Positions 1 to 12,701 of a stretch of DNA of 64,000 bases are shown here, piece by piece (within the stretch, counting starts at the first letter, position 1; every line of letters begins with the position of its first letter). A program made the position numbers and the translations under genes. This DNA comes from Bradyrhizobium sp. 200 (GTDB taxonomy: Bacteria > Pseudomonadota > Alphaproteobacteria > Rhizobiales > Xanthobacteraceae). The stretch lies in NCBI RefSeq assembly GCF_023100945.1, contig NZ_CP064689.1:9220001-9284000 (forward strand). Direction: 5' to 3'. The notes beneath the pieces were generated by a model. It saw nothing but the letters and a program-made list of their open reading frames with translations. It was not told the DNA's origin and ran no database searches.

Positions 1-1058
1 GACTCCTCCCTCGTGACCAGACCGGGAGGCCGGTGCTTGAGCCTGCTGTCATCCTGCCCGAGAAAGGGAAGGACGACGGTGCGCAATTTGCCTGTGCCGC
101 GCAGTTCGAACAGCCGCTTCATCGCCGCGTTCTGGGCCCGGTCGTGGATGCAGGCGATGGCGCTCTTCAGACGCGCGATCATGAACTGGCTCGGCGGGTC
201 GTGGCGCAGCCCGTATCCCGCCCGGCAACAGATGATCGTGTCGACCGGCTCCACATTGAGGCTGATGGACGGATCGCGGTCCGGCCAGAGCGGCGCGAGC
301 CCGAGATTATCGTAGACGCCGCCGTCGGTGAGATTCACGCGCTCGGAGCGCCTTGTGCCGTCGCGCTTGTCGAAGGGCAGCTCTTCATCGAGCGCTGGCA
401 GGAACATTGGATAGGCCGCCGAGGCGGTCACCGCATGCGCGAGCGTGATATCCGGGCGCGCCAGCCGGCCGAGGCGCCAGGACCCTGACTCGTTGGGGGT
501 GAAGTAAAACGCAGAGCCCGTGCGCAACTCGGCGGCGTTGACGATCAGGAGCGGCCTTCGGCCTTGCAGGTCGCGGAGGCGCTTCCCTTTGAACAGCTCG
601 TCGTCCATTGCCCTGCGCAATATCGTGGTGCGGCTCGCAAAGCGGCGGAACGGCAGGTGCCAGGTATCCATCTGCCAGCGGGGCCGCACCGCACCGGGCA
701 GGAGAAACGAACCGAGCCACAACAGCCATGTGAACGCAACGAAGAACAGGTTGGCGCTTCCGACAAGCATGCCGCAAAGAAGGGCCTTCAAACCCTCCCC
801 TGTCCGGAATGCCGTCCGGATCGCGGGGCCTGCGAGCCCGCGCGCAAGCGCCGCGCGTACGCGCGCTTCGAAAGCCGGGAAAGACTCGTCGTTCGCCGCA
901 TAGAGCGCGCCGATGACGCTGCCGCCTGAGACCGTCGACAGGATCTGCACCCGTTCAAGGATGCCGAGGTCGTTGAGGGCGCGCAGGCACCCAAGATGAA
1001 AGGCCATGGCGCGCGCGCCGCCGCCGGACAGGGCAAGGCCGATCGTCGATTTCGTCAT
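1..1058 (-). CDS. Patatin-like phospholipase (C-terminus beyond window edge)
   Basis: Predicted lipid acyl hydrolase, read on the minus strand from the ATG at 1058 and still open at base 1 (at least 352 residues seen). The oxyanion-hole motif SGGGARA lies at residues 11-17, the nucleophile Ser47 in VSGGSVIGA, and the catalytic aspartate D245 in TDGGVYDNLG, so the Ser/Asp dyad of the patatin family is complete. Residues about 90-121 form a strongly hydrophobic insertion (LLCGMLVGSANLFFVAFTWL and onward), which suggests membrane attachment; soluble patatins usually lack this. It starts 16 bp after the E2-E1-JAB stop, so it is very likely cotranscribed. In CBASS, patatins (CapV) are membrane-degrading effectors. 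That role is inferred here from context, because no nucleotide cyclase is visible. Confidence 0.88.
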   Translation of the reverse strand, partial: MTKSTIGLALSGGGARAMAFHLGCLRALNDLGILERVQILSTVSGGSVIGALYAANDESFPAFEARVRAALARGLAGPAIRTAFRTGEGLKALLCGMLVGSANLFFVAFTWLLWLGSFLLPGAVRPRWQMDTWHLPFRRFASRTTILRRAMDDELFKGKRLRDLQGRRPLLIVNAAELRTGSAFYFTPNESGSWRLGRLARPDITLAHAVTASAAYPMFLPALDEELPFDKRDGTRRSERVNLTDGGVYDNLGLAPLWPDRDPSISLNVEPVDTIICCRAGYGLRHDPPSQFMIARLKSAIACIHDRAQNAAMKRLFELRGTGKLRTVVLPFLGQDDSRLKHRPPGLVTREE

Positions 1059-1074
1059 CTGCATCCCTACCCCC

Positions 1075-3339
1075 TCATGCCGTGCGTCGCTGCGGCAACC
1101 GCTCCGCCTGCTGGTCGGCGAAGATCATCGCCAGCTCGGTTTCCGCGGCGATCAGCATTAGCGCCGGCATGGAATCCATCCCCATCAGCGCGGCGAGCCA
1201 GTCGATCTGCTGGCCGTCGACGGCGCTTGGCCTTGCCGATGAGCGCGGCGGATGCGAATGCCATTCGCCGACATAGCGCACCTGCCCAGCCGTGCGCTGG
1301 CGCACGCTGTCCATAAGCTCCTCGACGCCGTCGACTCCGCGCACGAAACTGCCCGGCTGCTCGTCGCTGTCCGGCGGCGCGGCGGAGGCATCGACCAAGT
1401 GAATGCGCTTCGCGGGAATATCGACGAGGCCAAAGAGAATGCCGCCGGTCTCGGACGGAACGCAGGCGTCGCGCATGACGCGGATGCGCCGCACGAGCCC
1501 CTCATCGATGGCGATTTCCCAAGCGCCTGCCCGGAAGCGCGCGACGGGTTCGGGCGTCATCGTCTCGACCCTGACCCCGCCGTCAGGCGCGAGAGTCCAG
1601 ATGCGGATCGCCGCCGATCCACCATCGATGGCGGCGGTCAGACCGGAAGCTGTCAACCCGCTCAGGATTGCCGCCTGCGATTGGGGAATCCGATTGGTGA
1701 TGGCGCGGCACGCGCCGGTGTAGGCGACGGTTTCAGCCGGCCTGCCGAGATGATCGGCAAGACGCTCCGTTCGCAGCACAAGTCCAAGATATTGAGCTTC
1801 GAGGTCGCGCAGCGTGAGTGCGCGGTCCGCGGGTTCTACGAGCAGCACCGCCGCATCGCCTGCCGGGTTGAAGAACAAGCTCACCCGTCGGCCCGGCGCC
1901 GCATGGTCCGAGAGGTGCCGCGCGGCGACCACGGAGGCCGTCGCGTCGATAATTAGGTCCGCGCCGCGAAGCGCGCTTTCAATTGCGGCTCCCTCGTCTC
2001 CTGCCGCGAAGAGATTTGCCGGAATCGCAGTCGCGCGCGGCGGCCCGGCAAGAGTGGAGTTGATGTGGTCCGCGAGAATTCTCGCTTTGGGGCGGGTCAC
2101 CGCGTCTCCCCGTGCAACGTGACGCGCAAGGTTGTGCGGCAGGAGCCGGTCATCATCGACCACCGTCCAGCGGAAGCGACCTTCGCGCGCAAGTGAATCG
2201 GCGACATGCGAGCCGATGGCGCCCGCGCCGGCCAAAATCGTGTTCCTCTCGTCGGATGAGCTGCGGCCCGTGAGCCGCGCCGCGAAGTCAGCCTCGAATG
2301 CGAGATGCACTTCGGCGGCCTGTACCTCTATGGCCGCGATAGCCGCCTCGTCGGGAGTCGTCGCCCCGATCATTTTTACGTAGCCGACCTTGCCGAGACC
2401 TTGGGACGGTTGCGCGATTCCGAGCGCCACCGCGATGTCGCCCGCGCTACGCGCGGTAACAAAGGCGCGGTGATCCAGCCCGTCCTGCTGCACCCCGCGC
2501 GGCGAGACGATCGGCATTTCCACGATCACGGCAAAACGGCCATTGAGACGCCATGCCGCGGAAGGTCCTTCGGCAATCCAGGCGCCAAGCCGCGTCCTGA
2601 GATCATCGAATAGATTGATTCGGCGTTCGCCGAGTATCGCCGCAAGGCTGGCGAGACTATGAGGCGCAAACTTCAGGCGCCTCATGTGCTCGGGCGGCAC
2701 CTTGTAGGTGACGATGCAGAATGGCTCGGCGGTGGACGGAAGCTTGCCCGGCTCCGCTTTGCGCACGCGCAGAATCGCGCCGTCGCCCGGATCATGCTCG
2801 GCGATAAGGTCCTGCGCCGGGCTGGCATCGAGCACCGACCGTGCAATGAAGAAACTGAGAGGGCTGCCCATCAGTACTGGGTCGAGCGGTTGGCGGGCAT
2901 CGTGCAGCTCGCCGCGCCCTGCCCGGCGAAACCACGACACGATGCGCTCGATCAGTTCCGCCGGCGTCCACGTCAGCCGCGCCTCGGCCCAAGGCCGATC
3001 GTCGATGCAGATCGTGGCCGGGAAGCCCTCGGGCACAAGCTGCTGGTGCTCGGTGTCGGGAAAGTCCTCGCGCAACATCGTGACGAGGGGCTGCGCATTC
3101 TCCCGCGTGAAGAGGACTCCGACGCGCTCGGTATGCAGGACCGGATAGACGGGACGCTGCGGCGCGCCCGTCAGAAGGTTGAGAATGACGAGTTCCTGCC
3201 CGCCGCGCCGGCGGCCTTCCACAAAGGCGCCGGCTGGCGCGCCGTAGCGGCGCATGAAGTCCGCAACGGCTCCGGCCGCCACATGGCGGAAGCCGGAGCC
3301 GTCGATCGCCTCCTCGAAGGTGGCCAGCCAGGGTTCCAT
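1075..3339 (-). CDS. E2-E1-JAB fusion: bacterial ubiquitin-like conjugation and deconjugation protein
   Basis: A 754-residue three-module protein. The N-terminal E2-like fold holds a candidate catalytic Cys111 in ATICIDDRPW, followed by the bacterial E2 signature around ELH..RQPLDPVL (144-156). A bacterial-specific middle segment (about 160-360) follows. The ThiF/E1 Rossmann domain has GAGAIGS (371-377) for ATP, VDDDRLLPHNLARH (394-407), and candidate catalytic Cys544 in YTGACRA. The C-terminal JAB/JAMM peptidase has Glu630 (SETGGIL), His694-x-His696 (EWHSHP) and S705-x2-D708, a full zinc-protease set. In type II CBASS the equivalent activities are split between Cap2 (E1-E2) and Cap3 (JAB); here one chain could attach and remove a modifier. 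It sits 5 bp after the metallo-beta-lactamase gene and 16 bp before the patatin gene. The modifier and target are not evident in the window. Confidence 0.92.
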   Translation of the reverse strand: MEPWLATFEEAIDGSGFRHVAAGAVADFMRRYGAPAGAFVEGRRRGGQELVILNLLTGAPQRPVYPVLHTERVGVLFTRENAQPLVTMLREDFPDTEHQQLVPEGFPATICIDDRPWAEARLTWTPAELIERIVSWFRRAGRGELHDARQPLDPVLMGSPLSFFIARSVLDASPAQDLIAEHDPGDGAILRVRKAEPGKLPSTAEPFCIVTYKVPPEHMRRLKFAPHSLASLAAILGERRINLFDDLRTRLGAWIAEGPSAAWRLNGRFAVIVEMPIVSPRGVQQDGLDHRAFVTARSAGDIAVALGIAQPSQGLGKVGYVKMIGATTPDEAAIAAIEVQAAEVHLAFEADFAARLTGRSSSDERNTILAGAGAIGSHVADSLAREGRFRWTVVDDDRLLPHNLARHVARGDAVTRPKARILADHINSTLAGPPRATAIPANLFAAGDEGAAIESALRGADLIIDATASVVAARHLSDHAAPGRRVSLFFNPAGDAAVLLVEPADRALTLRDLEAQYLGLVLRTERLADHLGRPAETVAYTGACRAITNRIPQSQAAILSGLTASGLTAAIDGGSAAIRIWTLAPDGGVRVETMTPEPVARFRAGAWEIAIDEGLVRRIRVMRDACVPSETGGILFGLVDIPAKRIHLVDASAAPPDSDEQPGSFVRGVDGVEELMDSVRQRTAGQVRYVGEWHSHPPRSSARPSAVDGQQIDWLAALMGMDSMPALMLIAAETELAMIFADQQAERLPQRRTA

Positions 3340-3344
3340 GGTGA

Positions 3345-4475
3345 TCAGCCGGCTCGCGGCGTGCTAGCTGCGGCGTAGGTGCTGACCATCGGCGCCGCGA
3401 TGATCATCGCGATCCCGTAGGCGGTGATCTCGAAGCCAAACGGCGCAGGCCTTGCTTTAGACGGATACTCCATCGTGACCGTGAACTGGCCGCCGATGTT
3501 GCTCGTTACGCGGCGATGGTGATTGGCCGCCTGCCGGTGAGGCGGCTGCACGTCATCATCTTCCTTCGATCCCTTCGCAGGGATTGGCCAGCTCGGCGAT
3601 ACGATGATGCCGCCGCTGCGTCCCTGCGTTTCAAACAGCCACTTCACATTCGGGACGGCCTTCGTCTCATCCGTTCCTCGGTCCGGGCCGAGCGAGAGAT
3701 ACGAACAATGGTGAGGGAGCTTCATTAAATCCCAGAGCAGCCGGTCGTCGTTACCCTTCCCGCGGGTCACCTGCACGATCGTCGAAATGCTCTCGTAATC
3801 GACATCCGACCCGAGGATCGCATAGGTGTCGTTGCCGCCCTCGCGGAACGTCACCTGCATGACGATGGAGTTCTGGTTGCGGTCGATCACCGTCTGCTCG
3901 TCCTGCCGCCAGCCGAACGGGCTGTGGACGAAGAACTCGGCCTGCGCCGGTCCTTCCTTGGCGTAGCCCGGCACGATCTTGCCGGCGTTGACGATCAGGT
4001 GCTTGCGGCTTTCGAAGTCGATGCCGAGCTTCGCAAAGCACTCCTTGAGAAGTTCGGGACGGGAAAACACCCGAACGCCCTTGCCTTGCCTCAGCCGGTG
4101 AATGGCCTCCGCGCGCACCAGCCGCGCATCGCCATCAAGGCCCTCCTCGCAGATCGCCGCGGCAGGCACCCAAAGCTCGGTAATGCGGACGCGGTCGTCG
4201 TCCTGGTACACCTTCGCATGCTCAAGCCAGAAGAATTCACCGAAGCCGCAGCAGTGGTCGTCGTCGAGATGGGTGATGCAGACGGCGTCGTAATTGTTGC
4301 GCCGCGCCTTCGCCAGATCGCGCCGGAGCTCCGAGGGGAGGTCGCAACGCAGGTCTTTATCGTCGTCGGCGCAGCGCATGTCGGCGTAGTCGACCAGCAC
4401 CTTGCGGCCGTCCGCGAGGTCGAGGCGGAGCGTATCGGCATTTCCGAGAGGGAAAAAGTGAACTTTCGCAAGCAT
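3345..4475 (-). CDS. ComEC-like metallo-beta-lactamase-fold hydrolase, first gene of the defence-type operon
   Basis: Predicted metal-dependent hydrolase of the MBL fold, 376 residues from ATG 4475 (GGAG lies 9 bases upstream; an in-frame ATG at 4490 has no clear ribosome site). Counting from the 4490 methionine, the metal motif is H74-L-D76-D-D78-H79, the HxDxDH form typical of ComEC/Rec2-type domains rather than HxHxDH. Near the middle, ILGSDVDYES and LMKLPHHCS match the ComEC GDxD and LKxxHHGS motifs. The chain ends in a hydrophobic stretch and the residues STPRAG, so its last residue is a glycine. It leads an operon with the E2-E1-JAB and patatin genes. MBL proteins are known companions of bacterial E1/E2/JAB genes; the substrate is unknown and could be nucleotide, nucleic acid or a conjugate. 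Confidence 0.83.
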   Translation of the reverse strand: MLAKVHFFPLGNADTLRLDLADGRKVLVDYADMRCADDDKDLRCDLPSELRRDLAKARRNNYDAVCITHLDDDHCCGFGEFFWLEHAKVYQDDDRVRITELWVPAAAICEEGLDGDARLVRAEAIHRLRQGKGVRVFSRPELLKECFAKLGIDFESRKHLIVNAGKIVPGYAKEGPAQAEFFVHSPFGWRQDEQTVIDRNQNSIVMQVTFREGGNDTYAILGSDVDYESISTIVQVTRGKGNDDRLLWDLMKLPHHCSYLSLGPDRGTDETKAVPNVKWLFETQGRSGGIIVSPSWPIPAKGSKEDDDVQPPHRQAANHHRRVTSNIGGQFTVTMEYPSKARPAPFGFEITAYGIAMIIAAPMVSTYAAASTPRAG

Positions 4476-4533
4476 TTGGGCAGTCTCCATGGATTAGGCC
4501 CGCGGGCCCGTTGTGGGTAACTCGGCTTTCGCC

Positions 4534-4600
4534 GTTGACGATTCTTCGTCCGTTAGCTAAGAAACTATACGGATCGCCTTTTGCGGTCAATATAGTTTCT
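4534..4600. promoter_or_regulatory. Divergent promoter with a 10-bp inverted repeat, likely WYL-protein operator
   Basis: The 10-bp arms AGAAACTATA (4560-4569) and TATAGTTTCT (4591-4600) are exact inverted copies separated by 21 bp. On the plus strand, TTGACG (4535-4540) and TAAGAA (4558-4563) are 17 bp apart and would drive the WYL gene. On the minus strand, TTGACC (complement of 4585-4590) and TATAGT (complement of 4564-4569) are 15 bp apart and would drive the MBL/E2-E1-JAB/patatin operon. The left arm overlaps both predicted -10 boxes, so one bound regulator could silence both directions. BrxR and CapW proteins are known to repress through such repeats; binding here is inferred. Confidence 0.65.
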
Positions 4601-4620
4601 ATACGTATCCACAGGGACTC

Positions 4621-5544
4621 ATGGGCAAGGAAACAGCCGATCTGCGCTGGGGTGTTGAGCAGCGCCTCGAATTCATCGAATTCCAACTCTTCTGGGAGGG
4701 TCGGCTGAATCGGGCCGACATCACCCGTTACTTCGGCGTCTCCGTGCCACAGGCTTCCAAGGACCTGAGCCAGTATCAGGAGCTGGCGCCAGATAACGTC
4801 GTCTATGACCGCAGTGAAAAGCGCTACTTCGCCGCAAAGAACTTCACGCCCCGCTTCCTGAAGCCGGACCCGGACCGCTACCTCTCGCAACTATGGATGA
4901 TCGCCGAGGGCGCCGTCAGCCGCGAAGAGAGCTGGGTATCGCGCCCGCCCTCGTTCGAAACGCTGCCGATGCCACGCCGCCATGTGGATCCCGAAGTGCT
5001 GAGGCACACGCTCGCGGCGATTCGTGAACGTCAGGCGCTTGAAGTTCGTTACCAGTCTCTATCCGGCAATCGCCCGCAGGCGACATGGCGTTGGATATCG
5101 CCCCATGCAGTCGCTCACGACGGGCAGCGCTGGCACGTCCGCGCATTCTGCCACATCGACCGCTCCTTCAAGGACTTCCTACTGCCGCGATTCTTGAAGA
5201 CGCGGGCAACCGCGCTTGCGGAAGCAATGCCCGAGCAGGACGCGATCTGGAATGAGATCGTGACCGTCGCGTTGAAGCCTCATCCCGGCCTGTCCGATGA
5301 CCAGAAGCACGTGGTCGCGCAGGATTTCGGGATGAAAGGCGGGCTTCTTGAAATGAAGGTCCGTCTCGCGCTTCTTTACTATCTGCTGAAGCGGCTCAAC
5401 CTTGATTTCAATGAAGAGAAGCGGCCGGCTAGAGAGCAGCACGTTGTCTTGGCCGATCCAAACGACGTGCGCTTAGCGCTGCAACGGGCACAGGCGCCCA
5501 CACTCGCAGAGACAAATGCACGCGCGACAGGCTGTGCCAATTGA
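4621..5544 (+). CDS. WYL-domain transcriptional regulator, BrxR/CapW type
   Basis: A 307-residue regulator: an N-terminal winged helix-turn-helix (about 10-75, with GRLNRADITRYFGVSVPQAS), a WYL-type ligand domain (about 130-205, core RWISPHAVAHDGQRWHVRAF) and a C-terminal WCX-like dimerisation region (about 215-295). This is the domain order and size of BrxR, which represses BREX, and of CapW, which controls CBASS. It is transcribed away from the E2-E1-JAB operon, and its stop is 24 bp before mod, so it may control both the conjugation operon and the restriction operon. The inverted repeat 20 bp upstream of its ATG is the obvious operator. The ligand that would relieve repression is unknown. 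Confidence 0.87.
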   Translation: MGKETADLRWGVEQRLEFIEFQLFWEGRLNRADITRYFGVSVPQASKDLSQYQELAPDNVVYDRSEKRYFAAKNFTPRFLKPDPDRYLSQLWMIAEGAVSREESWVSRPPSFETLPMPRRHVDPEVLRHTLAAIRERQALEVRYQSLSGNRPQATWRWISPHAVAHDGQRWHVRAFCHIDRSFKDFLLPRFLKTRATALAEAMPEQDAIWNEIVTVALKPHPGLSDDQKHVVAQDFGMKGGLLEMKVRLALLYYLLKRLNLDFNEEKRPAREQHVVLADPNDVRLALQRAQAPTLAETNARATGCAN

Positions 5545-5568
5545 AAGAAGATTTGCCAAGAGGGCATT

Positions 5569-7587
5569 ATGACGAAATACGGACCGCACAACCCGCACCC
5601 GCTTTCAACGATGCGCACCGAACTGGTGTGGGAGGGCAAATACGATGAATTTGGGAGCCGCCGTGAGGTAGACGCGGCTCGGCTTTCTATGCCGCTACAA
5701 AAGATCGAAACCATCGACGAGCCACGCTCACGCGCAGCGGGTCAGGGTGAGCTGTTTGATGAGAAGAAGGCGCACCGTGACGACTTTCGGAATCGCCTCA
5801 TCTGGGGCGATAACAAGTTGATTACAGCGTCGTTGTTGCAGGAATTTAAGGGGGCTATCGACCTCGTTTATATCGATCCACCGTTCGATGTTGGCGCCGA
5901 CTTTTCTATGCGGGTTCCGCTCGGGGACGAAGATGACAGCGTCTCGAAGGATCAAAGCATTCTAGAAATGGTCGCATACAGGGATATGTGGGGACGCGGT
6001 GCCGCGTCTTATCTGAATACAATTTATGAGCGGCTCACGCTCACCAAAGAACTACTTTCGGAGCGCGGAAGCATTTACATCCATATCGGTCCAAATGTTA
6101 GCCATCTTGTCCGATTAATAGCGACCGATGTGTTCGGTCCAGAGTTCGATCGCCGAGAGATAATATGGAAGCGAGTTTCCTCTCGCAGCCACGGCCAATA
6201 TTACCCGGCAACCCACGACTCGATTTTGTTCTTCACGAAATCCCAGACGCCTATTTGGAATCAGCTCTACGAACCACTCGATGAAAAGTACGTAAACGAT
6301 AAATACCGGTTCAAAGACCCTGACGGACGTAAGTATAGGCGGGACAATTGCCTTAACCAGAACAAGAACAGGCCGAACCTCACATACGAATGGAACGGCC
6401 ACGTTCGTACATGGCGCTGGACAAAGGACAAGATGCAGGATCTCGAACGTTCCGGTCGTCTGGTTTACACGAAGAACGGAGTGCCCGAATACAAGCGCTA
6501 TCTGGACGAGTCTGAAGGTGTCACGCTCCAATCAGTATGGACGAATATCCCTCCTGTTAATTCGCAGGCGATGGAAGATACAGGCTATGATACGCAGAAG
6601 CCTGAGGCGTTGCTTGAAAGGATAATCAAGGCTTCCTCGAACGAAGACGATCTCGTAGCCGATTTCTTTTGCGGGTCGGGGACGACCCTTGCTGTAGCTG
6701 AAAAGCTGGGTCGGCGGTGGATTGGGTCGGATCTTGGCCGCTTTGCCATTCATACGACGCGAAAGCGTCTGATCGGTGTGCAACGTGAGCTTCATGAAGA
6801 AGGGAGCGCCTATCGTTCCTTTGATGTTTACAACCTCGGACGCTATGAACGGCAGTGGTGGCAGATCGATGCCCTCAAGGGCGCCGACGATGAGCATCGC
6901 AAATTGGTGCTCCGATTCTTCCGGGCGGAAGAATTGACGTTGGCTCCCTCGCCTTTGCTTCACGGGCGCAAGGGCGCGGCTTTCGTCCACGTCGATGGGA
7001 TCGATAGCATCTTCAGTCGCGGCGAGGTCGTCGCCCTCGCAGAGGCTGTGAAGGCCGCGGGAGGCCGAGAGGTATATTGCCTTGCCTGGGATTTCGAAAT
7101 GGATATCCGGCAGGTGGTCGCCGCTGCCGAAGCAGAGCATGGCGTGAAGGTGCGGTTGCATCGCATCCCACGCGAAATTATGGAGCGCAATAGGACAGAA
7201 GTACCGCCTTTCTTCGAAGTAGCGCTGCTCGAAGCGGCCCCTGTCTACCGGAAGAACGGAACGGGCGTTAAGATCGTCGATATCAAGCTCCAAAACTTTC
7301 TGCCTTCGCTCACCGAGGTGCCATCGAAGGAACTCGAAGCACTGCAAGAGCGGGCGGTACAGAGCGGCTTCGATTTCATTGATTTCTGGGCCGTAGACTT
7401 TGATTGGAAGCCAGATCAGCCTTTCAACCATCATTGGCAGGATTATCGGGCGCGCAAAGACCGGGGTTTAAAAACGGTGAGCGACGCGGAGTTCGTCTAT
7501 GAGAGCGGCGGGCGACGCACCGCCTGCGTGAAGGTCGTCGATGTATTCGGCTGCGATACCAGCATCACCGTGGAGGTCGAGACATGA
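5569..7587 (+). CDS. Type III-like Mod DNA adenine/cytosine-N4 methyltransferase
   Basis: A 672-residue site-specific amino-methyltransferase. The catalytic motif IDPPF (102-106) comes before the AdoMet motif DFFCGSGT (365-372), the order of the beta class used by Type III Mod proteins. The stretch between them (about 140-340) is the likely target-recognition region, and an unusually long C-terminal part (about 430-672) follows the methylase core. It overlaps res by 4 bp (ATGA), so the two are translationally coupled. The 5.8-6.6 kb part is visibly richer in A/T and rarer codons than the neighbouring WYL and res genes, which suggests that the recognition segment has a different history. Whether the protein modifies alone or only in complex with Res cannot be told from sequence. 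Confidence 0.88.
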   Translation: MTKYGPHNPHPLSTMRTELVWEGKYDEFGSRREVDAARLSMPLQKIETIDEPRSRAAGQGELFDEKKAHRDDFRNRLIWGDNKLITASLLQEFKGAIDLVYIDPPFDVGADFSMRVPLGDEDDSVSKDQSILEMVAYRDMWGRGAASYLNTIYERLTLTKELLSERGSIYIHIGPNVSHLVRLIATDVFGPEFDRREIIWKRVSSRSHGQYYPATHDSILFFTKSQTPIWNQLYEPLDEKYVNDKYRFKDPDGRKYRRDNCLNQNKNRPNLTYEWNGHVRTWRWTKDKMQDLERSGRLVYTKNGVPEYKRYLDESEGVTLQSVWTNIPPVNSQAMEDTGYDTQKPEALLERIIKASSNEDDLVADFFCGSGTTLAVAEKLGRRWIGSDLGRFAIHTTRKRLIGVQRELHEEGSAYRSFDVYNLGRYERQWWQIDALKGADDEHRKLVLRFFRAEELTLAPSPLLHGRKGAAFVHVDGIDSIFSRGEVVALAEAVKAAGGREVYCLAWDFEMDIRQVVAAAEAEHGVKVRLHRIPREIMERNRTEVPPFFEVALLEAAPVYRKNGTGVKIVDIKLQNFLPSLTEVPSKELEALQERAVQSGFDFIDFWAVDFDWKPDQPFNHHWQDYRARKDRGLKTVSDAEFVYESGGRRTACVKVVDVFGCDTSITVEVET

Positions 7588-10500
7588 GCGCGGAAGCTCC
7601 CACCGCCGATCTCGTCATCAATACGGCAGCGCTCGAACCGCTGTTCTCGCCATGGGAAGAGCCCAACAGGCACCGAGTCCGCGCAGCTACTGCGGGCCAG
7701 CCTCCGGAAATTAAGACTTACCGGCGGCGCTCGCCGGTTCGGCTTGTCAGTTCCTTACGCGAAGCTGTCAAGGAATGGCGCGATCTCGCCTATCCGGGCG
7801 CGAGCGGCACGACACAGCAACTCCTGGCATACTGGTTTGAGCGCTCTCACCGCCTGCCAGATGGCCGGGGCGGAGACTTCGAGTTTCACTACTATTTCTG
7901 TCAGCGTGAGGCGATCGAGACGTTCATCTACCTAATCGAAGTTCGTCAAATTTGCACGCTCTCTAGCATGCTTGCGGATTTCGGCGGACCGACCGGGGAA
8001 CTAGAAGCGAGCGGCATCAATCCGGAGGACGAGCTGTGGGCGCGCTATGCTTTCAAACTTGCGACCGGCGCCGGTAAGACCAAGTGCATGAGCCTTGCAA
8101 TTGTGTGGAGCTATTTCCATGCGTTGCGCGAGGGCTCGGACATGCCCCGTCACTTCGTCGTCATCGCGCCGAACCTGACTGTTTTCGAGCGGCTCAAAGA
8201 AGATTTCCGTCCCGAGGGCGGCGGACCGGACATTTTTGTGAAGGACCCTCTTATCCCGCCGGAATGGAAGGGCGACTGGAACTTCTCCGTCGTGCTCCAG
8301 GATGAGGCGAGCGGCGCCAGCACAGGCGGCATCCTTTACCTGACAAATATCCACCGCCTGTTCGATTCGCGTGAAGGCCGCAGCAAGGAAGCCGAGACGT
8401 ATGCATGGGCCGGTCCGGCCGTCTCCAAAGCAAAGGCGCTGGATACCGGCGAGGAACTGCGCGACCGGATCACAGCGCATCGGCGCGTTTTGGTCCTGAA
8501 TGACGAGGCGCACCACGTCTGGGACCCCGGCTCGGCTTGGAACCAGGCGATCCGTGCGATCCACGAGACGCTGCGCAAACGCGGCGGTGACGGCGTGATA
8601 GCACAGCTCGACTTCTCGGCAACGCCGAAGAATGACAAGGGTGTCATCTTTCCGCATGTCGTGTGCGACACGCCGCTTGGCGAAGCCGTCGACGCAGGTA
8701 TCATCAAGACGCCGGTGATCGGTAAAAGCCGCCAGATCATAGAGCAACCGCATGACGACGCGGCCTATCGGTTCGAGGCGCATCTGCGCGTCGGATACGA
8801 ACGCTGGCGGCGTAGCCGCGATGAATGGCAGAAGAGCGGCCACAAGCCCCTGCTGTTCGTCATGTGCGAAAACACGGACGCGGCCGATCAGATCACTGCG
8901 CGCCTGAACGCCGACGCAGTGTTTAAGGAACTGAACGGCAAGACGATCAACCTGCACACCAATCTCAAGGGCAAGATCAAGAAGCAGAAGATTGATGGCC
9001 GATCGGTCGAGGTCTTCGTCGAGGACGAAAAGGCCATCTCGGATGAGGACCTGAAAGCGCTGAGGCGGATTAGCCGCGACCTCGACAGCAATGAAAGCCA
9101 ATACACCTGCATCGTCTCGGTGCTGATGCTGCGAGAAGGATGGGACGTGCGCAACGTCACGACCATCGTCCCGTTGCGGCCTCTCACGGCACGGTCGAAC
9201 ATCCTTCCCGAGCAGACGCTCGGCCGCGGCCTGCGGCGGATAACTCCACCGGGCCAGGCTAACGAGTTGGTCACCGTCGTCGAGCACCCTTCTTTCATCA
9301 ATCTCTATGAGCAGGAACTCGAGCAAGAAGGCCTGCCCATCACAATCGAGGAAGTTGAAAAGATACCGGCTACGACTGTCACGATCTTCTCCGACGAGGC
9401 GAAGGATTTCGAGAAGCTCGACATCGTGCTGCCGGCGCTGACCGCGGCGCATGAGATTCAGCCCAAGCTCGAAGAACTGAGTATTGAAGACATCCACTCG
9501 GCCTTCCAGCCGTACAAGCCCCTGCCGCTTGGCAAGGCGAGTGCTGCCGACATCGAGTACGAAGGCCGCGCACTGATCACGGACGAACTCATTGAGTCGA
9601 TGAAGATCAGTCTGCCGCTCCTGCAGAACGGCATCACGGCCATATCGTTCTTCGTCCGCGAACTCGAATCGGCGTGCCGCGTACAGAGCACGCACACCGT
9701 GCTCGCGCCCTTGTTACAAACATTTCTCGGGACAATTCTGTTTGGCGAGAACGTTTCGCTGGTCGATCCTCGCCTCACGGCGCGCCTATCGGACCAGGAT
9801 GTGCGTGAACATATCCGCGCGGTGTTTATCCCGTTGATCCGGGAGCGAACGGTCAAGACCGAAAAGCGCCGGGTCAAGGGCTCGCCACAGAGCCTGCGTC
9901 ACTGGAAGCCATATCAGGCGACATTCTCGGAAAGCCGGCCAGTCGAGAGGGCGGAGAAGACGCTTTTCAATCTGGTGCCGTGCAACCGCTCGCTGGAAGT
10001 CGCGACGACCAAGTTTCTGGACAAGGCGCCGGACGTTGCCGCCTTCGCGAAGAACGCGGGGCCGCAGGCGGTGCGCATCGACTATCTGACGGCCGATCAC
10101 CGCCTCGCTTTCTACACGCCCGACTTCTTCGCCCGCGATGCTGACGGCGCGTACTACCTGATCGAGACAAAGGGCCGGCAGGACCGGGATGTGCCCCGCA
10201 AGGCAGGTGCCGCTGTCGAGTGGTGCAAAACAGCCTCGAAGTCGGGCACGCGCTGGCATTATGTGTTCGTACCGCAGGCCATTATGGAAGGGCTGACGAG
10301 CAGCCGCCTCGCCGATCTGGTGAGATCCTGCGCGCCTGCTTTGCAAAACGTACTAAGCGAAACAACGGCCGCGCCCGAGCTGCCGCTGTTCGGCGAACAG
10401 ACTCGCGAAAAGGCGCAGGCCTTCTACTCCGAGGAAACGCTTGGTAAGCTGACGCCGCGAGAACGCAAAGCAGCCGAAGACTCGGCGGAACTTTACCGGT

Positions 10501-10994
10501 ACTTCGAGAACAAGGGAGCCGGCACGAATTTCGCGCCCGCTTTCAACGCCCTGCTCGGTCCTTTCGATGAAGCGGCGAAGGTCGTGATCCTGACAACACT
10601 GCAAGATAAGATGCCGGCGGCGCGCGGCGATCAGGAGAACTGGTTTGAGCCCTATATGGGAAAGCTAGAGTCGCATTTGCGCGATCGCTATCAGAAGATG
10701 GCGAAGAATTTGAAGCGCGGCTTGGTCTTCGGCAACCCGCACTCTGCCATCGGGCTTCTTTGCGCGTGTTTCGATTTTGCGCTCAATGATAAGACCGGCC
10801 TCGACGGCGTGTTCAAGGCAATCCGTGAGTCATTCCGTCTGTCAGGCTCGCGGAAACTTCTCGAACGTCTGACGGCGGTAAACGATTTCCGCAATACCTA
10901 TGTGGCTCACCATCAAAGAGAGCTCGACGACAAAACCCTCGCTGAACGAAATCTGAAGCATTGGGTCGAAACACTGGTGCTGCTGCGGGTATGA
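7584..10994 (+). CDS. Type III-like Res helicase-nuclease with a C-terminal HEPN-like motif
   Basis: An 1136-residue superfamily 2 ATPase. Walker A is ATGAGKTK (160-167), the DEAH box is NDEAHH (306-311), and DFSATPKN follows as motif III. Helicase motifs V-VI are seen in MLREGWDVRNVTTIVPLRPL and QTLGRGLRRI. A PD-(D/E)xK nuclease is suggested by YTPDFF and LIETKGR (E861, K863). After it the protein continues for more than 200 residues and ends in a helical region with FRNTYVAHH, an R1103-x5-H1109 motif of the HEPN type, which in other proteins is the active site of RNases. Classical Res subunits end soon after the nuclease, so this tail is an accessory domain. The gene is coupled to mod by an ATGA overlap. 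Confidence 0.86.
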   Translation: MSAEAPTADLVINTAALEPLFSPWEEPNRHRVRAATAGQPPEIKTYRRRSPVRLVSSLREAVKEWRDLAYPGASGTTQQLLAYWFERSHRLPDGRGGDFEFHYYFCQREAIETFIYLIEVRQICTLSSMLADFGGPTGELEASGINPEDELWARYAFKLATGAGKTKCMSLAIVWSYFHALREGSDMPRHFVVIAPNLTVFERLKEDFRPEGGGPDIFVKDPLIPPEWKGDWNFSVVLQDEASGASTGGILYLTNIHRLFDSREGRSKEAETYAWAGPAVSKAKALDTGEELRDRITAHRRVLVLNDEAHHVWDPGSAWNQAIRAIHETLRKRGGDGVIAQLDFSATPKNDKGVIFPHVVCDTPLGEAVDAGIIKTPVIGKSRQIIEQPHDDAAYRFEAHLRVGYERWRRSRDEWQKSGHKPLLFVMCENTDAADQITARLNADAVFKELNGKTINLHTNLKGKIKKQKIDGRSVEVFVEDEKAISDEDLKALRRISRDLDSNESQYTCIVSVLMLREGWDVRNVTTIVPLRPLTARSNILPEQTLGRGLRRITPPGQANELVTVVEHPSFINLYEQELEQEGLPITIEEVEKIPATTVTIFSDEAKDFEKLDIVLPALTAAHEIQPKLEELSIEDIHSAFQPYKPLPLGKASAADIEYEGRALITDELIESMKISLPLLQNGITAISFFVRELESACRVQSTHTVLAPLLQTFLGTILFGENVSLVDPRLTARLSDQDVREHIRAVFIPLIRERTVKTEKRRVKGSPQSLRHWKPYQATFSESRPVERAEKTLFNLVPCNRSLEVATTKFLDKAPDVAAFAKNAGPQAVRIDYLTADHRLAFYTPDFFARDADGAYYLIETKGRQDRDVPRKAGAAVEWCKTASKSGTRWHYVFVPQAIMEGLTSSRLADLVRSCAPALQNVLSETTAAPELPLFGEQTREKAQAFYSEETLGKLTPRERKAAEDSAELYRYFENKGAGTNFAPAFNALLGPFDEAAKVVILTTLQDKMPAARGDQENWFEPYMGKLESHLRDRYQKMAKNLKRGLVFGNPHSAIGLLCACFDFALNDKTGLDGVFKAIRESFRLSGSRKLLERLTAVNDFRNTYVAHHQRELDDKTLAERNLKHWVETLVLLRV

Positions 10995-11025
10995 AACCAG
11001 ATTCAAATTTCGGCCTCGTGCACAG

Positions 11026-12381
11026 CTATGCCGCTATCCGTTCGCCGTCTTTATTGGCTTCTGCCGAAATCGACTGCTCATACAACCGAGCAAGCGCTGC
11101 TTCTCGCGATGCACGGTCTAGCGCATAAGTCGTCCGTCGGAATTTCTTGCCGTCAAGCAAGCCCTGAATGTAACCGGCCACTGTGTCGGCCGCCATGACG
11201 AGAAGGGAATCGACAGTGTGTATGTAGCGTCCCGTGACCGTGCCGCGTGAGTGACCCATCAGCGCTCCGATCGTCGCTTCTGTGAATCCAAGATCATTGG
11301 CAATGCTCGAGAAGCTATGGCGGAGCACGTGCGGCGTTATATCGGCAAGCGGAGTGTCCTTGAACAGCTTCTTCCATAATTTTGGAAACCCAACGAGCGG
11401 CTTTCCTTCCACCGTTCCCTTAAAGACATAGCCCCCTTCGTTGTCAGAGAGGAGTGGGGAAAGGAGATCCAATACGGGTAACCCCACTGGACGGACGGAC
11501 GCCCCTTCCTTGCTATCGTTTAGGCGGAGACAGCTGCCATCCACATCGACCTCCGGTCCCTTCAGGCGGATTGCCTCGCCCCGGCGACAAGCAGTCAGTG
11601 CGAGATGCCGAACGATCTGCACCGCGGTCTCGAACTGCTCGTCGGCAGCGTTCTCCTGAAGGATTTGTCCTAGCAGACGATACTCGTCATCGCTCAGACG
11701 CCTCTTCTTCACGCCGTCCGCCGGCTTACGAATCCCATGTGCGGGGTTCTTCTCGATTAGACCTTGGTCTACCGCATAAGTGAGAATCCCGCCCAGGAGC
11801 CCCACGGTACGCGCGGCCGTACCGAGGCCTCCCTTTACGATGGATTTTCCGCGCTTTTTGCTTGTCTTTTCGATCGTTGCAGATTTTCCACTCGCAACGT
11901 CTTCAACGAATTTGTTGATGTCAGCAGGATTGAGACTCTGGACGCGCTTTTTGCCAAGGAGCGGAACGATATGTCGACTGATGCGGCCGCGATCGACATA
12001 CAAGGAACTCGCCTTCTTCGGCCGATCTCCCTTCCCAAGTATGAGCCCCTTGTCCGCGGCAGCGAGATAGCGCTCGCAAAGCTCCTTCACAGTAAGCGCC
12101 TTTCGGCGCAGGACGCGTTCCTCAGCCGGATCTTCACCCTTCAACGTCCCGCCCAACGTTGCAATCGCGAGCTTACGCGCCTGCTCGGCCGTGATCGTCC
12201 CATGCCGACCGATCGTCATCCGTTTGCGGAGACCATCACGATTGCGGTAGTCCACGAAGTACGTACGACTTCCGCTCGGATGCACGAAGATTCCGAACCC
12301 CTTTAATTCGCTGCACCAGATCGTGAATTGCTTTTCCCGCGGCGTCGCGGCGTCGACGATGGATTTAGTCAGTTTCGGCAT
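11026..12381 (-). CDS. Tyrosine-type site-specific integrase of the island
   Basis: A 451-residue P4/XerC-type integrase. The N-terminal DUF4102-like arm-binding part (about 1-90, with FGIFVHPSGSRTYFVDYR) and a core-binding SAM-like domain (about 95-205) precede the catalytic domain. The catalytic residues are Arg266/267 (ACRRGEA), His351-x2-Arg354 (HVLRHSF), His377 (GHSRG) and Tyr386 (TGRYIH). It is convergent with res (31 bp apart) and starts about 150 bp from the 75-nt tRNA-Arg-like sequence at 12531-12605, which is the natural candidate for its attachment site. This marks the right border of the defence island. Confidence 0.93.
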   Translation of the reverse strand: MPKLTKSIVDAATPREKQFTIWCSELKGFGIFVHPSGSRTYFVDYRNRDGLRKRMTIGRHGTITAEQARKLAIATLGGTLKGEDPAEERVLRRKALTVKELCERYLAAADKGLILGKGDRPKKASSLYVDRGRISRHIVPLLGKKRVQSLNPADINKFVEDVASGKSATIEKTSKKRGKSIVKGGLGTAARTVGLLGGILTYAVDQGLIEKNPAHGIRKPADGVKKRRLSDDEYRLLGQILQENAADEQFETAVQIVRHLALTACRRGEAIRLKGPEVDVDGSCLRLNDSKEGASVRPVGLPVLDLLSPLLSDNEGGYVFKGTVEGKPLVGFPKLWKKLFKDTPLADITPHVLRHSFSSIANDLGFTEATIGALMGHSRGTVTGRYIHTVDSLLVMAADTVAGYIQGLLDGKKFRRTTYALDRASREAALARLYEQSISAEANKDGERIAA

Positions 12382-12530
12382 TCACAGACCTCGCAGTAGA
12401 ACTCACCAAAAACTCACCACGAAATGGCAAGGGGCAGAGGGCGAAATCGTAAATTAGCGTTGCTTTATGACCGAATTCCGAATTATAGATCAAAGCCTTA
12501 TAGAAGAAGGGCGCAGGCAAGCGAACCTTG

Positions 12531-12605
12531 GCGAACGCTAGTGCAGGGTCGAGATTTACCCTCCGAAGGCAAAGGTCACACGTTCGAATCGTGTCGGGTG
12601 CGCCA
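12531..12605 (+). pseudogene. tRNA-Arg(CCG)-like sequence with degraded 5' half; probable attachment-site relic
   Basis: From about 12557 to 12605 the sequence reads as the 3' part of a tRNA: anticodon loop CTCCGAA (anticodon CCG), a T-arm with GTTCGAATC, an acceptor strand and an encoded CCA end. The 5' half (12531-12556) keeps only partial acceptor pairing (mismatches against CGGGTGC) and no proper D-arm, and the anticodon stem has an A-C mismatch. This is the pattern left when a tyrosine recombinase integrates at the 3' end of a tRNA gene. The intact tRNA-Arg would then lie beyond the left edge of the window. Assignment to Arg(CCG) is from memory of alphaproteobacterial tRNAs. Confidence 0.7.
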
Positions 12606-12628
12606 AACTTTGTAAGACGCCATATAAG

Positions 12629-12680
12629 TTTGGACTTGTGCCACCCAGGCTGGACTCAGCGTCACGTATGTCTGGACTGG
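12629..12680. repeat. Three TGGACT repeats spaced 20 and 22 bp after the tRNA-Arg relic
   Basis: TGGACT occurs at 12631, 12651 and 12673, each preceded by a G-rich pair of bases (GTT, GGC, GTC), about two helical turns apart. They begin 25 bp after the CCA of the tRNA-Arg relic. Arm-type integrase or excisionase sites are organised this way around att cores, so this is the favoured reading; chance cannot be excluded for a 6-bp core. Confidence 0.45.
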
Positions 12681-12701
12681 AGCAAGTACCTCCCCTCCCG
12701 C

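Follow-up and report, generated by a model that had tools for sequence, protein, structure and literature searches.

To what does an E1-E2-JAB apparatus attach anything in an operon that has no CD-NTase and no recognised ubiquitin-like gene, and what does the patatin-like phospholipase encoded with it do? Both questions are raised by three minus-strand genes at positions 1-4490 of the window, by which we mean the whole 64,000-nucleotide stretch analysed here (positions 9220001-9284000 of a source genome of 9.49 Mb in one contig). Sequence comparison and analogy with characterised systems lead us to read the genes, as the best account, as a cyclase-free CBASS-like membrane-attack system. We give a probability of about 0.7 to the operon being a member of the 6A-MBL systems that would act much as type II CBASS does but without a cyclase, with its MBL protein as both enzyme and modifier. 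The features on which the argument turns are the following.

3345..4490, minus strand: MBL-fold protein of the 6A-MBL system; ATG annotated at 4490, translation probably starting at 4475
1075..3339, minus strand: E2-E1-JAB fusion protein, 754 aa; NF058523 644 bits, cut-off 320
1..1064, minus strand: patatin-like phospholipase containing a hydrophobic helix, truncated at the edge of the window; PF01734 E 1.1e-19
4621..5544, plus strand: CapW-family WYL repressor gene, divergent to the operon; PDB 9c5g CapW E 1.6e-69
4560..4600, no strand assigned: putative CapW operator AGAAACTATA-N21-TATAGTTTCT, an inverted repeat between the divergent genes

The MBL, fusion and patatin genes follow each other in this order and lie where the preliminary description had placed them, at 3345-4490, 1075-3339 and leftwards from 1064. 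Of the two gaps given there (5 and 16 bp), the 5 nt between MBL and E2-E1-JAB stands; the gap to the patatin is 10 nt and becomes 16 nt only with a patatin start at the second Met (1058). Among the matches listed, the nearest named relatives of both the MBL protein and the patatin come from Bradyrhizobium. Left of base 1, where a CD-NTase or a ubiquitin-like gene was to be sought, neither was recognised among the eight main ORFs (L004 7156-16064, reaching ~7.8 kb past the edge, where L004 is the locus sequence including 15 kb left of the window). This agrees with the earlier suggestion that the MBL protein may take the cyclase's place, and a complete CD-NTase directly downstream of the patatin, which had been named beforehand as a finding that would reduce the set to an ordinary CBASS variant, was not seen. 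On the same strand beyond the patatin, the next recognised gene encodes a DUF2130 protein (L004 13280-14557, minus strand) with a weak PADLOC match to LmuB, and further on, on the other strand, lies a gene with a weak GHKL-ATPase match (L004 11696-13393, plus strand); tblastn found neither protein in the other 40 loci compared below.

The two-gene core is of a known kind. The accessible text of Iyer et al. 2006 describes, in row 6a, an E2-E1-JAB protein of three modules whose gene nearly always neighbours one for a metallo-beta-lactamase, the operon usually consisting of these two genes (PMC1779556), and NCBIfam (June 2026) lists NF058523/NF058524 as the anti-phage 6A-MBL system, with both core proteins over the curated cut-offs (403 bits for the MBL protein against NF058524, cut-off 220). 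The idea that the set might be new therefore falls for its core, since the pair has been described since 2006 and is named in NCBIfam. Our operon and the 6A-MBL system have in common the same two proteins, their adjacency and the domain fusion, and differ in that the 2006 description usually has two genes where the operon has three. In that same accessible text, a Gly tail on the MBL protein and effectors go unmentioned, and our literature searches returned nothing pointing to conjugation or effectors of the 6A MBL protein ('6A' alone is too short to search). We did not find the likely mechanism and effector logic in print, although earlier publication is possible.

The kinship with type II CBASS that was proposed at the outset is supported, the shared features being a Cap2/Cap3-type fusion with predicted E1-E2 and JAB activities, a C-terminal Gly on the partner enzyme, a patatin partner, and regulators of the CapW or CapH-CapP type. 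The operon differs from type II CBASS in having no CD-NTase, in having an MBL enzyme as the partner, in carrying Cap2 and Cap3 in one chain, and in lacking a known cyclic-nucleotide signal. Bil and Bub operons likewise encode ubiquitin-like conjugation enzymes, under CapW, CapH-CapP or CapK-CapS control as far as the accessible text of PMC13373217 goes, and the operon resembles them in these enzymes and in its CapW-type control but differs in that no separate ubiquitin-like protein was recognised in it. The ComEC MBL domain, Avs1a, LmuA and the RT-associated MBL also count among the nearest known relatives; for these we found no link to E1, E2 or JAB.

In the fusion protein, the Pfam domains Prok-E2_A, ThiF and Prok-JAB all score over cut-off, which predicts Cap2-type and Cap3-type activities in one chain, and the Cap2 structures 7tsq/7to3 match by sequence. 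We compared 41 loci, made up of our own, 8 of 8 from one search, all 20 others that were over cut-off in genome samples and 12 plasmid records picked by hand among 30 listed of 250. E2 Cys111, E1 Cys544 and JAB Glu630 and His694 are kept in all 41, and JAB His696 and Asp708 in 40; the catalytic residues named in the preliminary description (Cys111, Cys544 and His694) were correctly assigned. In 41/41 loci the two core genes share a strand, the MBL gene being the upstream one, with an IS5 element between the two in L080 and a split MBL gene in L068. The order of the core genes is thus conserved, though a patatin gene may stand before or after the core or give way to another gene. Lack of a conserved gene order, which had been named as an argument against a unit, was not seen.

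The E2-E1-JAB model scores over cut-off in 14 of 100 relatives (own genome included), in 6 of 398 genomes across the phylum and in 4 of 385 across the class, where the own genome counts in all three samples and genome G082 in two of them. With the fusion as query and a threshold of E 1e-20, tblastn matched 250 plasmid records, in 196 of which the match covers 80% of the query or more; part of the 250 may be CBASS Cap2 and not 6A. Phage records were considered as carriers of the 6A MBL gene and set aside, given that 50,697 of them gave no match at E 1e-8; the gene was found on seven virus-binned contigs.

The MBL protein is where we see the answer to the first question. Read from Met 4475 it has 376 aa (381 aa as annotated), and 86 of the 120 homologues listed are equally long; it scores 15.1 bits against Pfam Lactamase_B, below the cut-off of 22.7. 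A ComEC-like body is followed by a C-terminal tail, predicted to be disordered, that ends in Gly376; tail residues 361-376 correspond to window bases 3348-3395. The NCBIfam MBL model covers the annotated protein (381 aa) only up to residue 359 and so does not include the tail. Of 240 MBL homologues listed for two queries (120 each), 230 have this Gly as their last residue or carry just a short extension after it. The 120 close homologues comprise 112 with the tail Gly last, 7 with PRAG plus 1-4 residues and 1 (P0101, 347 aa) that stops short of the tail. For a divergent query, ~28% identical to the window protein, Gly is last in 77 of 120, is followed by 2-6 residues in 34, is replaced by a PAGFA end in 8 (P0191, P0192, P0193, P0195, P0230, P0234, P0236 and P0237) and is absent in 1, which has no tail of this kind. 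The PAGFA ends are either Ala ends, as in some cGAS, or two-residue extensions.

The Gly tail is also present on all seven virus-binned contigs (in L090 as TYG plus two residues), and in the 41 loci it is found directly in 37, in another frame in 2, in a split gene in 1 and in an IS5-interrupted gene in 1; L041 was kept out of the 37 as a chance Gly end in the wrong frame. An alignment was built from 25 of the first 29 loci (L040, L041, L061 and L068 left out) and 14 hand-chosen sequences of the 120 homologues. Its column 376 holds Gly in 39/39 rows, a result that hinges on the MAFFT placement of extended tails, while the 20 residues ahead of Gly376 are less conserved than the body (mean commonest residue 42% versus 54%, 25 loci). 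For comparison, a terminal Gly occurs in 0 of 9 second MBL proteins, 7 of 41 E2-E1-JAB proteins and 13 of 120 patatins, control sets that are small and are not matched families without E1-E2. Given that homologues share common descent, the 240 sequences cannot be counted as that many independent events; the persistence of the tail at 25-30% identity reduces this ancestry caveat, which is still present.

In type II CBASS, the accessible text of PMC10097602 reports that the last residue of cGAS is Gly or Ala with variable penultimate residues, a pattern confined to operons in which Cap2 and Cap3 are full-length, that cGAS without the Gly forms neither conjugate nor thioester, and that Cap3 cleaves at that C terminus. 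In a Bacillus cereus CBASS the last residue of the cyclase, Ala, is joined to PspA, according to the accessible text of PMC11153139. Since such a Gly-tail signature marks the conjugated cGAS, the MBL protein is, by sequence and analogy, probably the modifier, loaded by E1-E2 and set free by JAB. We infer the same from the conjunction of an intact E1-E2-JAB and a Gly-ended partner with the lack of a cyclase and of a recognised ubiquitin-like gene.

The MBL protein is probably also an active enzyme. In the alignment, H69, D73, H74, D224 and H256 are kept in 39/39 rows and D71 in 38/39; we take these six residues, from knowledge of the family, to form the metal site, and their retention suggests activity. 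It also favours the strongest of the rival explanations, in which the MBL protein is only a nuclease effector or sensor, a ubiquitin-like protein from elsewhere is conjugated, and the Gly tail has another use, for example docking. The Bil and Bub pathways use a separate ubiquitin-like protein, a precedent for such a modifier encoded elsewhere. Against this, a Pfam scan of the 3 operon proteins and of 10 further ones recognised no ubiquitin-like gene, a search that a divergent one could escape, and the MBL terminal Gly is kept, in some proteins with short extensions as in precursors of ubiquitin-like proteins. We regard this explanation as unlikely.

If the core is constant, what does it drive? 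Of the 41 loci, 25 have a patatin gene adjoining the core, in some before it and in others after it, and these loci span distant lineages, in line with the initial suggestion that the lipase is the likely effector. The patatin lies upstream of the MBL gene in six Methylobacterium/Methylorubrum loci and on the opposite strand in L054 (~0.9 kb away) and L078. Thirteen of the 41 loci have, beside the core, small membrane-type proteins of ~200-290 aa from three families: L042, L059, L060, L063 and L064; L056, L061, L065 and L077; and L057, L066, L067 and L068, where tblastn was the only basis for assigning those of L061 and L077. The 11 small proteins measured in the effector position have two to four hydrophobic segments. 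Six of the small proteins were scanned and gave no Pfam match over cut-off; that of L066 weakly resembles Csx27 (E 0.0036). Patatin and small protein are never both adjacent to the core, the patatin of L056 being ~4 kb off. Seven of the 13 small-protein loci encode a second ComEC-like MBL (for example, L063 10802-11866 and L056 11285-12319), and PADLOC places the two of these that were tested as candidate PDC-M48B (E 1e-108 and 2e-57). A Tle1-like phospholipase gene adjoins the core in one small-protein locus (L059 6151-7284, minus strand, PF09994 E 1e-68), and three loci (L052, L075 and L079) have no clear effector gene next to the core.

With either a patatin or small proteins around a constant core, the third gene is exchanged as in CBASS, the core staying fixed and the exchanged gene being, by its sequence, membrane-directed. 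In a fusion-protein tree, no fewer than 7 changes are required to account for the patatin label, versus 13 in shuffles, and because 7 is fewer than 13 the label is also clustered by ancestry. Five effector labels need 13 changes (minimum possible 4, shuffles 15.4), where the labels were read by eye, 'none seen' is the fifth label and several long branches are flagged. The rival that these data address is that the patatin is an unrelated neighbour and the unit is the two-gene 6A-MBL core only. It gains from the usual two genes in the accessible text of Iyer et al. 2006 (PMC1779556), from the 16 of 41 loci without an adjacent patatin and from the upstream position in the six Methylobacterium/Methylorubrum loci. 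We consider it very improbable in view of the adjacency in 25 loci, on either side and in distant lineages, and of the 26 longest-contig sizes that coincide between the 120 best MBL and the 120 best patatin homologues, compared with 0.5 expected (jittered).

The whole patatin has 417 aa (L004 14811-16064), of which 354 lie inside the window, the gene extending 190 bases past the edge. The Pfam Patatin domain is over cut-off, and the motifs STVSGG and DGG hold Ser46 and Asp247, presumably the catalytic dyad as in the family. The nucleophile that the preliminary description had numbered Ser47 is instead Ser46 (start 1064) or Ser44 (start 1058), in STVSGG. Its hydrophobic insertion of ~30 residues is recovered: the hydrophobic stretch spans residues 94-112, and in a 92%-identical homologue one predicted 31-residue helix (89-119, pLDDT 82) holds it. 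This stretch occurs at the same place in 108 of the 120 close patatin homologues listed and in only ~10 of the 25 core-adjacent patatins, a few of whose starts were called too far downstream; as a defining trait of the patatin partner the helix was accordingly dropped. Fold matches to the model of the 92%-identical homologue include PlpD (first), patatin, CapE and CapV. Assignment as CapV by sequence was rejected, with neither a PADLOC match nor an NCBIfam CapV match; NCBIfam gives only a partial RssA match, far under cut-off.

An ordinary CBASS that has been split, in which the patatin is served by a distant CD-NTase that is itself the substrate of E2-E1-JAB, is the least probable reading: the own genome has a single SMODS gene, 2.1 Mb from the operon, a SMODS match (E 0.001) occurs in 8 of the 21 genomes that carry the 6A-MBL core (completeness only 80% for one genome, and SMODS being the whole of the CD-NTase search), the match in G082 lies ~4 kb from the core (22.9 bits, below cut-off, the only near one of the 8), and the CBASS effectors CapE and CapV are among the patatin fold matches, but 13 of the 21 genomes have no SMODS match and a search of the 41 loci at E 0.01 gave no relative of the own CD-NTase protein.

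For the reading of the MBL protein as both enzyme and modifier, the following order of events would fit. The E1 domain would adenylate the C-terminal Gly376 of the disordered tail, and the tail would be handed from E1 Cys544 to E2 Cys111 and then onto a target amine. The JAB domain would trim tail extensions in those relatives that have them and strip the MBL protein from its targets. Conjugated, or otherwise licensed, the MBL protein as a ComEC-like metallo-nuclease or phosphodiesterase would sense infection and then activate the product of the third gene, a step that would have to work across unrelated effectors. In our operon the hydrophobic helix of the patatin would put the enzyme at the membrane, where lipid hydrolysis may halt the infected cell, and CapW would repress the operon until DNA damage.

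Within this account, the odds seem to us somewhat better than even that a nuclease-like enzyme, neither a cyclase nor a beta-grasp protein, is the ubiquitin-like modifier and drives interchangeable membrane effectors without a CD-NTase. We hold to the same degree that the effectors are patatins, multi-pass proteins and a Tle1-like lipase, and that JAB both matures and recycles the MBL protein. If this is true, bacterial ubiquitin-like conjugation is tied neither to the ubiquitin fold nor to cyclases, and an unrelated enzyme can become a modifier by gaining a short Gly-ended tail. Type II CBASS and 6A-MBL would then be one design, in which any Gly-ended sensor enzyme plugs into E1-E2-JAB. The reading would also supply a logic for the gene pair of 2006, one left unstated in the accessible text (PMC1779556), and would connect a core that has no synthase of a nucleotide second messenger with CapW-type control and with partners directed at the membrane.

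Upstream of the core, the divergent matches are to CapW-type genes in 9 of 41 loci and to CapP-type peptidase genes in 15 of 41, and the CapW/CapP queries gave no match there in 17 of 41. The putative operator has a counterpart in L073, an Agrobacterium plasmid, where identical arms with a 21-base spacer lie between the MBL operon and a CapW gene whose product is 52% identical. Across 391 genomes of the family, only the own genome contains the repeat pattern. A single operator for all CapW loci was discarded, given that among 8 loci only L073 has these arms; L053 and L081 have another palindrome in common, L075 has an unrelated 8-base one and four loci have none.

Directly 3' of the CapW gene lies a type III restriction-modification pair (window 5569-10994, plus strand) with a mod protein of 672 aa (PADLOC MTase_III 738 bits) and a res protein of 1136 aa, and CapW may serve both the operon and these downstream genes. 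Rfam gave zero matches on window 1-12700, and an exact copy of the tRNA end of at least 16 bases, as would mark the other border of an island, was absent from the window and L004. An integrase-like gene, called by eye (window 11026-12381, minus strand), lies 149 bp from a tRNA-Arg(CCG) gene (window 12531-12605, plus strand), and the two perhaps form one border of a defence island. Among the plasmid loci, L079, on a Klebsiella pneumoniae plasmid, carries the 6A-MBL core with a divergent WYL gene, and the fusion matches 165 Klebsiella plasmid records by tblastn.
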